Positions 2,882 through 13,479 of a DNA stretch of 47,905 nucleotides are shown piece after piece. Within the stretch, counting starts at the first letter, position 1. Every line of letters starts with the position of its first letter. The notes beneath the pieces are model-generated. The model ran no database searches. It had not been told where the DNA came from and saw nothing but the letters and a program-made list of their open reading frames with translations. The DNA comes from an uncultured Opitutia bacterium. GTDB taxonomy: Bacteria > Verrucomicrobiota > Verrucomicrobiia > Opitutales > Opitutaceae. The stretch lies in the NCBI GenBank assembly GCA_903919985.1, contig CAIXKG010000149.1, positions 1 to 47,905 of the forward strand, in the 5' to 3' direction. Position numbers and translations under genes: made by a program.

Positions 2882-4693
2882 ATGAATTTTTTTTCGCTCT
2901 CCGTTCTCGCAATCGTCGGGTCGTTGAGCGGCGCGGTGGTTCGCGCCGAGGTTTCGACCGCGGGGGTACACACCATCGGACTCGAGTCGCTCCACGCCGG
3001 ACAGCACGGCCAGGTGTGGACCGTTTTTCGCGGGACCGAAGCAGAGCCCTTCGACGTTGAAGTCACGGGTGTCGTCCAAAATGCGCTCGGCCCGGGAAAA
3101 TCACTCATCCTCTGTCAGCTCACCGATCCTCGGGTTCAAAACATGGGCGCTGTGGCCGGCATGAGTGGCAGCCCGCTCTACATCGAGGGAAAGCTTGCCG
3201 GGGCCTTGAGCTACCAGATTCAGCGCTTTGAAACCGTGCGTTACGCCGGCTTCACCCCGGCGGCCGACCTGGCCGAAGTGCGCGACCGAGCCGACGCCGT
3301 ACCCGGCGTATTGCCGTCGCTGCCGACGATTCCCATTTCGTCGAAGTCAACGTCTGCGCTCGATTCTTTCTCCCCTCTCCGGCCGGCCTTCACCGTCAGC
3401 GGTCTTTCCCCACGGGTCGCCGATTTGTTCAGTCCTGCCTTCACCGCCCTCGGTCTTGAGGTCTCTGCGCTCGGCGGCAGTCTCAGCTCCGCCGGCGACT
3501 CGCCGTTAAGTCCGACAACTGAAACCGCCGATTCGTCTTCAGGTGTTCCCGTGACGTTGCGCGCCGGCTCGGCCGTCTCGGTCGCGCTCACCACCGGTGA
3601 CATCACGCTCGCCGGTACTGGTACGGTTTCGCGCGTCGACGGCAATCGCATCACGGCGTTCGGCCATCCGATGCTTTCACTCGGCGACGTGGAGCTGCCC
3701 ATGTGCTCTGCGGAAATCGTGACGATTCTTCCTTCAACTCTTCAGTCCTCGAAAATCGCCAACACCGGGCGCGTGATCGGTACCATCACGCAGGACCGGC
3801 TGTCGGCTGTTTCCGGTACCCTCGGTGCGGGCCCGGCGATGATTAAGGTGGAAGTCAACGTTGCCGCCGGCGGCAATTCGTCCCGTCCGGCTCGCACCCT
3901 CCACTTCAATGTCGTCCGCCAGGCCGGACTCACACCCACGCTCATCGCGACCGGGATTACGCAGGCCATCGTCGGCTCGAACGACGCCGGCCTCACCAAC
4001 GGGTTCCGCCTCACCAGTATCATCACTTACTCGCCCGCCCAGACACTCACCTCGCGCAATCTTTTCGCCGGTCCTCAGGCGTTTGCCCAGGGTCTGCAGG
4101 AATTCGTCCGCGGTCTTTCGCAGGATTTGCAGAATCCCTATGAAAAAACATTTCCCGAGCGGGTGACGTTTAGCGTTGAACCGCTGGCGGAAAATCCCGC
4201 CGTGACCTTTGATCTTTTCCAACTCTCCCGTACCAGCGCCCGCGCCGGCGACACGGTGCTCGCGACGATTGGCTGGCGCGACTATCAGGGCGCCGCTCAT
4301 CGTGAGACGATTCCCGTGCCGGTCGATTCGTCGTGGGCCGGGAAAAGCCTCGATGTCATTCTCGCTCCGGGCCGGGCGATTGACGAACTCACCGGGCACC
4401 CATCGATGATCGCGACCGCCCAGTTGCGCAGTTTCAACGCCTACCTGGCAGCCGTCCGCGACAACCGGCCCAACGACGGCCTCGTCCTCGCGGTGTTGGA
4501 AAAATCCGCCCTCTTTAGCGATCAAACCATCGGTACACCCGAGACGCCCGGCTCGATCGAGCGCATCGCCCGGACCGCCGATGAAACCCGCTTCAAAAAG
4601 ACCGACGGTCTCGTGTCGCTCTGGGAGCAACATCTGCTGGCCGACAAACTGGCCGGCGTACTTCTGCGGCGCCCGCTCCGTGTCACGGATTGA
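2882..4693 (+). CDS. Secreted SpoIVB/S55-family serine peptidase-like protein
   Basis: Predicted exported protein of 603 residues. A hydrophobic signal peptide (about residues 1-22, ending near VVRAE) is followed by a domain carrying the motif GMSGSPLY at about residues 93-100, which matches the active-site serine region of peptidase family S55 (SpoIVB). A second family hallmark, AFGHPMLSLGD, lies near residue 260. The C-terminal 200 residues look beta-rich and carry no motif I recognise. In Bacillus SpoIVB is a sporulation signalling protease, but S55 domains also occur in non-sporulating bacteria, and here the function is unknown. The gene lies 94 bp before a large lipoprotein gene in the same orientation, and the two may form one unit. 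Family assignment is good; substrate is unknown. Confidence 0.8.
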   Translation: MNFFSLSVLAIVGSLSGAVVRAEVSTAGVHTIGLESLHAGQHGQVWTVFRGTEAEPFDVEVTGVVQNALGPGKSLILCQLTDPRVQNMGAVAGMSGSPLYIEGKLAGALSYQIQRFETVRYAGFTPAADLAEVRDRADAVPGVLPSLPTIPISSKSTSALDSFSPLRPAFTVSGLSPRVADLFSPAFTALGLEVSALGGSLSSAGDSPLSPTTETADSSSGVPVTLRAGSAVSVALTTGDITLAGTGTVSRVDGNRITAFGHPMLSLGDVELPMCSAEIVTILPSTLQSSKIANTGRVIGTITQDRLSAVSGTLGAGPAMIKVEVNVAAGGNSSRPARTLHFNVVRQAGLTPTLIATGITQAIVGSNDAGLTNGFRLTSIITYSPAQTLTSRNLFAGPQAFAQGLQEFVRGLSQDLQNPYEKTFPERVTFSVEPLAENPAVTFDLFQLSRTSARAGDTVLATIGWRDYQGAAHRETIPVPVDSSWAGKSLDVILAPGRAIDELTGHPSMIATAQLRSFNAYLAAVRDNRPNDGLVLAVLEKSALFSDQTIGTPETPGSIERIARTADETRFKKTDGLVSLWEQHLLADKLAGVLLRRPLRVTD

Positions 4694-4786: not shown

Positions 4787-7282
4787 ATGCTCCGTCCATT
4801 TTTTCGCCGTCTCGCTGCTTCCGTGGGCCAGTCCAATGATCACCGTGGCCGGAGTGCCCTCGCCCCGCAAAACAGCGCTCACCTCGCGACGTCAGACTGG
4901 AGTGGCCCATCGACGGCGCTGCGAGCACGGGGCGCCCTGCCCACGACGCTTTTGCTGGGGTGGGCGTTGGTCCTCGCGGGATGCCTTTCCACTGCAATCG
5001 CCGATCCCCTTTCGAAGAAAATCGACCTCGATTTCTTTCGTGAAATTCCCAGTCGCAATCTCCGCGGACTCGCCACGCGTTCAGACGGTCGGATGGTCGC
5101 CGGCCCGGTTCTCTCAGAACTCACCGGTTCTCTGCCCGCCGATCTGCTCTGGTGTCTTACCCCATCGTCGGAAAATCAGTGGCTTATCGGCACGGGCCCC
5201 GACGGCCGGATTTTTGAGGCGACGCTCGATGCGGCCAAAAATAGTTTCACCGCGCGCGAAGTTGCCAAACTCGACGACCCGCAGGTGTTCGCCCTGCGGC
5301 GTTTGAGCGACGGCTCCATCCTCGCCGGCACGTCACCCCGCGGTGGACTCGTGCTCATCCGGGAAGGAAAAGTCGTTGCGCGAGTTTCCCTGCCCGTCGA
5401 TTCCATTTTCGATTTGCTCGTTCTGTCCAACCCGGAGCCCGAAACCCCCAACGCGAAACTTCCGGCAACGCTCGCGCCCGTTTTGATCGCGACCGGAAAT
5501 CCCGGGCGCATCTATCAAGTTTCGCCAACGGTGTTCGCCGCCGCGGGCATCGCCGCCGACAAAGTCACCGATCCGAAAATTCTCGCAGAAAAAGGCATCA
5601 CGCTTTTCGGCGAAATCCGCGACCGCAACGTCCGCCGGCTCGCACGCGTCGGCGATGCAATCGTCGCCGGCTCCTCGCCGCGCGGAAATATTTACCGGTT
5701 TTCGCCACGCGCGAAAAATTCCCCCGCAGCCGGCCCCGTCGCCCCGGTCATCCTCCAGGAAAATCGCGACGCGGAAGTCACCGATATTCTACCTCAGCCC
5801 AACGGCGATTTTTATGCCGCCGTCGTTTTCACCACGGTCGGAGGCGATGCCCGCATCAACACCGGGCCCAAGCCCAAGGACGGCGCCAAGGATGCGCCCG
5901 ATCCGTCCGCCGTTGCATTGTTCTCCGCGCTCGCCGTCCAGGACCGATTCACCGGTCGCAGTGCGTTGCTTTATTTTCCGGCCGGAGGGTTTCCGGAAAC
6001 GCTCACGGCGCGCAACAACGTCGCGTTCTATCAAATCGTGCGGCACGGCGACACCCTCGTCGCCGCCGGCGGCGAGCAAGGCGAACTCGCCGGATATGAT
6101 CTCGGCTCGCGTTTTGCGCTCACCTTCGCCGGGAGCACGTCGGCGCAGATTAACGCCCTCGCCGCGGTCGCCGGTACGCCGGGCCGCTTTCTCGCCCTGC
6201 GCAATAACCCAGCCGGCCTCGCGTCGCTCGATTTCGCCTCCACCGGCGAACGCTCGGCCGAGTCGCGTCGTTTCGACCTTTCGACCCCGGCCACCTTTGG
6301 CGCGCTTCGCTTCACCCGACTGCGCAATCTTTCCGCCGATCAAATTACCGTCGAAATCAAAACCAGTTTTGGCACGGATGAAGTGGAAGGTTGGACCGCA
6401 TGGACCGCCCTGGCCCCCGGCGATCCCGGGGACCCGTCGTGGCGCGGCTCCGATCTCCGCGGCCGTTACGCCAAGCTCAGATTGAAAATTCTCGCGTCCG
6501 CCGCGGCCAACGCTCCGGTCGAACTCGACAAGGCTGAGCTCTATTTTCTTCCGCAGAACCGGCGTCCGCTGCTGCAGGAATTCCGGCTGCTTGCGCCCAA
6601 CGTCGCCGTCGTGCCGGCGTCTGAGCCGACGCCGTCGGTATCCACGTCGCTCAGTCAAATTCTGGCGAATAGCGGCGTGGAGGACAGCAGCAGTAAACGC
6701 ACGAGGTCGAATTTTATGAGCAGCCAAGTCGTGCCCTCGCCCGGCACGCAGGCTGCACTGTGGACGCTAACCGATCCCGATGGCGACAATCTCGCGGCGA
6801 CGTTTTCTATCCGCCGGGAAAATGAAACGACTTGGACAGATCTGGTCGTGGGTACGCGCGATCCCTACGTCCAATTTGAAACGGCGCGCTGGCCCGATGG
6901 GGTTTATTTCACCCGGCTCGTGGCCACCGAACTCGCGCCGCGGGCTGCGGCCGACCGACTCAGCGTCACGTTCGAGACCGACAACCTCATCATCGATCAC
7001 ACGCCGCCGGTCATCCTCGCGGCTACGGCGGCGCCGAGCGCACAGCGGATGGTCATTAATGTGCACGGTCGTGATGCGCTTTCGCTGCTCGATAGCATCG
7101 AGGTCGTTTTCAACAATGGCTACCGCGAGACCCTCGAACACCCCGTCGATGGCATTCGCGATGGCCGCGAGGAGAGTTTCAACCTCGAGGTTCCGATCGG
7201 CAAAGTCACGGGTGCCACGGCCGCGGAAGTGACACTTTACGATTCCATCGGGAACGCCACGACCCGCCGAGTTACCTGGTAG
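4787..7282 (+). CDS. Large predicted lipoprotein with beta-propeller-like repeats
   Basis: Protein of 831 residues from the ATG at 4787; an in-frame start at 4718 would add 23 residues with no signal character. A hydrophobic stretch ending in the lipobox LAGC (Cys66) suggests membrane anchoring. Unusually, about 40 residues of low-hydrophobicity sequence separate the basic N-terminus (MLRPFFRRLA) from the hydrophobic core, and this segment is repeat-derived (see the repeat at 4824-4945). The middle contains repeated short blocks such as GRIFEATLD, LAGTSPRGGLVLI, GNPGRIYQVS and GSSPRGNIYRFS that resemble blades of a beta-propeller. The end looks like one or two immunoglobulin-like domains (IIDHTPPVI onwards). 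It follows the S55-like gene. No enzymatic motif is visible and I do not know its function. Confidence 0.78.
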   Translation: MLRPFFRRLAASVGQSNDHRGRSALAPQNSAHLATSDWSGPSTALRARGALPTTLLLGWALVLAGCLSTAIADPLSKKIDLDFFREIPSRNLRGLATRSDGRMVAGPVLSELTGSLPADLLWCLTPSSENQWLIGTGPDGRIFEATLDAAKNSFTAREVAKLDDPQVFALRRLSDGSILAGTSPRGGLVLIREGKVVARVSLPVDSIFDLLVLSNPEPETPNAKLPATLAPVLIATGNPGRIYQVSPTVFAAAGIAADKVTDPKILAEKGITLFGEIRDRNVRRLARVGDAIVAGSSPRGNIYRFSPRAKNSPAAGPVAPVILQENRDAEVTDILPQPNGDFYAAVVFTTVGGDARINTGPKPKDGAKDAPDPSAVALFSALAVQDRFTGRSALLYFPAGGFPETLTARNNVAFYQIVRHGDTLVAAGGEQGELAGYDLGSRFALTFAGSTSAQINALAAVAGTPGRFLALRNNPAGLASLDFASTGERSAESRRFDLSTPATFGALRFTRLRNLSADQITVEIKTSFGTDEVEGWTAWTALAPGDPGDPSWRGSDLRGRYAKLRLKILASAAANAPVELDKAELYFLPQNRRPLLQEFRLLAPNVAVVPASEPTPSVSTSLSQILANSGVEDSSSKRTRSNFMSSQVVPSPGTQAALWTLTDPDGDNLAATFSIRRENETTWTDLVVGTRDPYVQFETARWPDGVYFTRLVATELAPRAAADRLSVTFETDNLIIDHTPPVILAATAAPSAQRMVINVHGRDALSLLDSIEVVFNNGYRETLEHPVDGIRDGREESFNLEVPIGKVTGATAAEVTLYDSIGNATTRRVTW
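4824..4945. repeat. Palindromic repeat-like segment inside the lipoprotein signal region
   Basis: The arms TGGGCCAGTCCA (4824-4835) and TGGAGTGGCCCA (4898-4909) are inverted copies matching at 11 of 12 positions. A GC palindrome GGGCGCCC follows at 4930-4937. The segment is translated in frame and separates the basic start of the signal peptide from its hydrophobic core. It shares the short string CCATCGACG with the repeat at 10471-10506 in hrpA, so it may belong to a related family; that link is tentative. Confidence 0.45.
5434..5466. repeat. A/C-rich proline-asparagine coding tract
   Basis: A short purine-poor stretch coding for NPEPETPNAKLPATL inside the lipoprotein gene. It resembles the two A/C-rich tracts in the hrpA gene (10962-11040 and 11675-11712), which code for related P, K, T, Q, N and S-rich peptides, in the same strand orientation. 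It is the most degenerate of the three. Confidence 0.35.

Positions 7283-9117: not shown

Positions 9118-13479
<4,362 letters not shown>

Follow-up and report, generated by a model that had tools for sequence, protein, structure and literature searches.

The Host Reading Frame and Its N-Terminus

The locus lies on a contig of an uncultured Opitutia bacterium (CAIXKG010000149.1; 47,905 nucleotides, analyzed over its whole length and referred to here as the window) and centers on an open reading frame (ORF) with a neighboring gene upstream and an HrpA-like RNA helicase gene further downstream (Table 1). The host ORF displayed no match in a Pfam scan and belongs to a protein family kept across Opitutaceae MAGs. 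Its residues 1–54, from MLRPFFRRLA to ALPTT, comprise a basic start and a mostly hydrophilic remainder, confirming the long, mostly hydrophilic stretch (~54 residues in ORF 4787–7282) that the initial annotation had placed ahead of the hydrophobic core. The conserved DPLSKK motif begins at residue 73 (base 5003). From ATG 4787 up to this conserved region, the in-frame ATG, GTG, and TTG codons are ATG 4787 and GTG 4823, which precede the repeat element described below, and TTG 4952 and TTG 4967, which lie inside the hydrophobic core. ATG 4787 is the one in-frame ATG upstream of DPL, and no in-frame ATG or GTG occurs between the element and the conserved region.

Table 1. Coordinates of the features discussed at the locus (window positions).
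Feature	Position	Strand	Evidence or remark
Upstream neighbor gene, SpoIVB peptidase S55 domain	2882..4693	+	outside the REP element
Host ORF, 831 aa	4787..7282	+	ATG 4787, stop 7282
Basic start MLRPFFRRLAAS, probable original n-region	4787..4822	+	suggestive homology to relatives' n-regions
Left REP arm CCGTGGCCGGAGTGCCCTCGCCCCGC	4843..4868	+	matrix 25.6 bits; blastn to other copies
Spacer, 52 bases assuming a right arm at 4921–4946	4869..4920	+	
Probable right REP arm, decayed, TCGTGGGCAGGGCGCCCCGTGCTCGC	4921..4946	-	-2.9 bits, weak
Hydrophobic core LLLGWALVLAG (residues 55–65), then C at 4982–4984	4949..4981	+	mean Kyte-Doolittle 2.28
LSTAIA preceding DPLSKK, A-x-A signal-peptidase-I-like site	4985..5002	+	kept in relatives
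HrpA-like RNA helicase gene with two further in-frame REP insertions	9118..13479	+	
REP arm in HrpA gene, encodes GRVPPPAI	10469..10494	+	15.0 bits, moderate; alignment
REPIN near HrpA C-terminus	13098..13180	-	covariance model E 1.5e-5; matrix; alignment

A Dispersed REP Family and Its Candidate Mobilizer

A GTGG/GTAG-tagged REP palindrome (consensus ATGTGGGCGGGGTGCCCTCACCCCGC) is dispersed in the window's own genome (G000; 2.64 Mb, 79% complete). Allowing at most 2 mismatches, we counted 61 matches to the family core GCGGGGTGCCCTCACCCCGC in G000 and 86 in its relative G006, with 0–11 in each of the other 11 same-genus genomes, while a reversed control of the core gave none in all 13. The family thus has the high copy number of a short palindrome seen in GTAG-type REPs (61 matches in G000; reversed control 0), and its matrix displays the GTAG/GTGG tag at one end of the stem-loop, the window arm having GTGG. 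The tagged form GTGGGCGGGGTGCCCTCACCCCGC was found within 2 mismatches in 26 of 120 sampled family-level genomes. Many copies form inverted pairs whose starts lie ~42–48 bases apart (REP doublets, or REPINs), and a typical copy (L022) folds with a z-score of −8.07 as DNA. This head-to-head dimer arrangement is seen for many family copies, with weak support for the right arm of the window copy. Copies were scored with a 26-base matrix (consensus ATGTGGGCGGGG) derived from 61 arms that all lie outside the window, and with a whole-element covariance model from an alignment (A2) of 13 complete copies of 74–80 bases each.

The arrangement of a RAYT was present in G006, where contig C306 carries, directly after hemA, a 152-aa Y1_Tnp ORF with a PDHVHLF motif and family REPs on both sides. 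G000, at 79% completeness, yielded no RAYT with REPs on its flanks; the corresponding hemA site has one REP, followed downstream by DNA matching what lies beyond the transposase in G006, an arrangement that fits both loss of the transposase in G000 and its gain in G006. We infer that this transposase mobilizes the family. Its homologues in G008 and G004 (L141–L143) had no REP within the stretches fetched. The one Y1_Tnp match in G000 (L056, C75) was rejected as a partner because the repeat on its flanks is a different one, containing GGGGTCAG, a sequence that fits the GGGGWSAS motif assigned to TIR-flanked transposases in the sections of PMC3733652 cited here. The copies flanking L056, which contain GGGGTCAGGTTGCCCATTT, are inverted, as for the TIR-flanked transposases in those sections.

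A Probable, Decayed REP Doublet in the Signal Region

A blastn search of 4800–4960 against G000 returned, apart from itself, two other places, weakly, both of which are family copies. The left arm scored 25.6 bits with the matrix, compared to a maximum of 16.0 bits in 60 shuffled windows. For the right arm, a score of −2.9 bits is expected 10.7 times per window and ~0.04 times in this segment, and the covariance model favors a decayed right arm elsewhere (~4895–4918), scoring the copy poorly as a whole (21.0 and 17.7 bits; E 0.07 and 0.26). A stable hairpin in the window copy was rejected, as the fold is no better than that of shuffled sequences (z −0.75 as RNA and 0.20 as DNA). Given the weak right-arm score, the low covariance score, and the fold at shuffle level, we read the copy as a decayed REP doublet, with uncertainty as to its right arm and its precise limits; with no stable stem-loop in this copy, its assignment to the family is based on the left arm and on descent.

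The inverted repeat reported in the initial annotation is not this element. One ungapped inverted pair matching in at least 11 of 12 bases does occur in 4824–4945, but it is near chance, as pairs of at least 11 of 12 were also found in 5 of 100 Markov-shuffled copies and in 2 of 100 other 122-base segments of the window, and a repeat search with a 9-base seed reported no inverted repeat. The palindrome GGGCGCCC, likewise, is present at 4930 (one of two in the window), though again near chance. We therefore rejected the 11-in-12 inverted repeat as the key feature of the segment, the actual repeat being the REP palindrome. It might be argued from the low whole-element score, together with the near-chance inverted repeat and fold, that the segment has nothing to do with REPs, being G+C-rich by chance or belonging to an n-region that is long by nature. 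However, the left arm lies far above the shuffled windows and blastn ties the segment to dispersed copies of the family, making this explanation highly improbable.

The reading frame is open throughout the element, with RG..AL.P in the left arm and R..G..PT in the right arm, and the + strand over the right arm (4921–4946) encodes RARGALPT. This frame resembles that of another family copy in G000, L097 (PGALTPRN...KRGEGAPPTS). In L092, L074, L075, and L097, we noted REPs directly ahead of, and in frame with, apparent starts, where they are probably leader sequence.

Comparison with Orthologs

Ortholog matches were present in 12 of the 13 same-genus genomes (the window's own included), and 10 loci with a readable N-terminus were used for the same-genus comparison. 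Named MAGs, most of which carry the label Opitutaceae or Opitutae, supplied a further 15 rows; L113, whose N-terminus is missing, was left out. The resulting 25 rows correspond to ~23 genomes, as L103 and L037, and L104 and L044, look identical. The signal peptide is free of REPs in all 25 rows. In the MAG loci, a scan of the 400 bases ahead of the RNLRGLATRSDGR-like motif found one REP only, in L103; in G006 this single REP is located upstream of the ATG, at a position that differs from that in the window. The distance from the outermost in-frame M to (D/E)PLS is 26–58 residues in all 10 same-genus rows vs. 72 in the window, and that from the upstream stop to (D/E)PLS is 120–227 bases in these rows vs. 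309. An equally long n-region was thus found in 0 of 10 rows when the ortholog N-termini were compared as the initial annotation had proposed, and its suggestion that an insertion stretched the n-region is supported, with the inserted DNA deriving from a dispersed REP/REPIN family and the orthologs being without it. In the wider rows, two upstream distances (295 bases in L108 and 374 bases in L115) are near or above that of the window, and 10 of the 15 lack an in-frame ATG and hence a readable start.

The leader DNA could not be reliably aligned, with 80, 43, and 34 of 300 shuffles reaching the scores of G006, G005, and G004, respectively, and the alignment was therefore not used as evidence. 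In the best alignments to G006 and G004, moreover, the window's ATG falls into a different register, which is at odds with a simple pairing of one ATG with the other. Given both points, ATG 4787 as the ancestral start and MLRPFFRRLAAS as the ancestral n-region are not proven from DNA.

The assignment of the host protein as a lipoprotein is doubtful. While LAGC resembles a lipobox, none of the 25 ortholog rows has one upon inspection by eye (a Cys does occur at this position in L116, but within SLGC), and the relatives end in A-x-A/G just ahead of (D/E)PLS. Processing by signal peptidase I, judged from these ends and the missing lipobox in relatives, is more likely than lipoprotein processing.

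Whether the element is translated depends on the start codon. Initiation at the internal TTG 4952 or 4967 would leave the REP in a 5′ leader, a reading in line with the view, expressed in the sections of Di Nocera et al. (PMC3733652) cited here, that N-terminal REPs are often extragenic through misannotation, with the single REP upstream of the ATG in G006, and with the 10 of 15 wider rows lacking an in-frame ATG, from which non-ATG starts seem common in the protein family. Against this, both TTGs lie within the hydrophobic core and are not preceded by a basic residue, whereas the relatives keep an Arg near the core, and neither ATG nor GTG follows the element in frame; a start after the repeat is thus unlikely. 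Only two bases separate the end of the element (4946) from the first core codon (4949), with no ATG between, indicating that the coding sequence itself was split. A REP inserted before the original start would have left a start and basic residues after the element; as there are none, the element is probably coding.

REP Insertions in Other Genes

The HrpA-like gene in the window was aligned with 14 other sequences. The first insertion, in a linker of the HA2 region, is absent from all 12 covering sequences (L120 has a different insertion there); its arm at 10469–10494 scores 15.0 bits, below the 16.0-bit maximum of the 60 shuffled windows, and leans on the alignment. Of the 13 sequences covering the second site, 12 are without the insertion, the exception being G006 (L139), which has it in the same GVPxP-type frame. 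The HrpA gene of G006 carries one more REP at the end of a contig, close to residue 856 in window numbering. In the window gene, a weak REP-like match at 12738–12763 (− strand; 9.9 bits) falls within the range of the shuffled windows.

Elsewhere in G000, the HrpB gene (L096, G000:C151:11263) contains an in-frame REP in its HA2_N domain, where the match takes 54 residues for 29 profile positions; the site is similar to that of the first HrpA insertion. Similar REP-encoded tails (GGGVPSPR) were noted on HemA in G000 (L065, C82) and G006 (L063, C306). Among 28 G000 ORFs spanning a hit to the REP pattern and scanned against Pfam, a domain match crosses the hit in 4, namely HrpB, HrpA, an AMP-binding enzyme (L007), and a lactonase (L083). 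The last of these was rejected as a chance match, with 3 mismatches to the REP pattern and no clear extra residues. In L007, the crossing Pfam match has no net extra residues, and a true in-gene REP is likely but not proven.

Proposed Origin and Comparison with Known Systems

We consider the most probable reading to be that a GTGG/GTAG REPIN inserted into the signal region of an exported protein and is translated there as a linker, with export probably kept (probability roughly 0.73, as judged from sequence). A REP doublet would have inserted, presumably via transposition by a RAYT, between the basic start and the hydrophobic core of the region encoding the signal peptide. Being stop-free in the frame used, and of a total length that keeps the frame open, the element would then be translated from a putative start at ATG 4787 as a hydrophilic linker of ~35–41 residues, forming a long n-region, and would have decayed after insertion while the frame stayed open. 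The likeliest product, as predicted, includes the REP-encoded residues. With the core intact, and with two arginines encoded by chance in the right arm (RARGALPTT) just ahead of it, Sec export and cleavage at the conserved A-x-A site probably continue. It is possible, if rather doubtful, that these REP-encoded residues were exapted as the charge source of the n-region, which would make the MLRPFFRRLAAS start a now dispensable N-terminal extension.

A long polar stretch between a basic start and the core is atypical of signal peptides, and the insertion could instead have ruined the signal, leaving an export-dead allele whose ORF has yet to decay. The copy is decayed, however, and hence probably not recent, yet 831 codons remain open, and we regard a dead allele as improbable. 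The host ORF offers a natural test of the sequence tolerance of the Sec n-region. Intragenic N-terminal REPs are often dismissed as misannotated starts; here, with the REP between start and core and no ATG or GTG after it, translation through the REP is directly testable. The HrpA insertion common to two genomes provides material for measuring selection on REP-encoded peptides.

REPINs were reportedly described by Bertels and Rainey in 2011 as two inverted REPs acting as one unit. The architecture of the family here is alike, while the window copy differs in lying inside a coding sequence and in its decayed second arm.

A close likeness is to the GTAG REPs of Opitutus terrae, a species that belongs to the same broad bacterial group, the named relatives here being Opitutaceae-type MAGs. 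According to the sections of Di Nocera, De Gregorio, and Rocco 2013 (PMC3733652) cited here, intragenic GTAG REPs are abundant in this species, at the highest number in that study, and most elements of its GTAG-20 family are GTGG-tagged. Like GTAG-20 as described in those sections, the family here has a majority GTGG tag, head-to-head dimers, and intragenic copies, a likeness in tag, pairing, and placement, and RNA helicases are among the targets of both (PMC3733652). The same sections make no mention of a split between n-region and hydrophobic core, nor was such a split found in the titles and opening lines of abstracts on REP or palindromic elements and signal peptides.

Rickettsia palindromic elements are described in parts of PMC10969869 and PMC3733652 as palindromic repeats in frame in unrelated protein genes, and the family here shares this habit of in-frame insertion in unrelated genes. 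The likeness is an analogy in insertion habit; the intragenic R. conorii repeats are assigned to the CGTC class in the cited sections of PMC3733652, unlike the GTGG/GTAG family here. The extension also differs from the long signal sequences of autotransporters, as outlined in part of PMC2805444, in being lineage-specific and repeat-derived. The decoration of proteins by REPs is already known, and it is the site of this insertion, between a charged start and a hydrophobic core, that is unusual.
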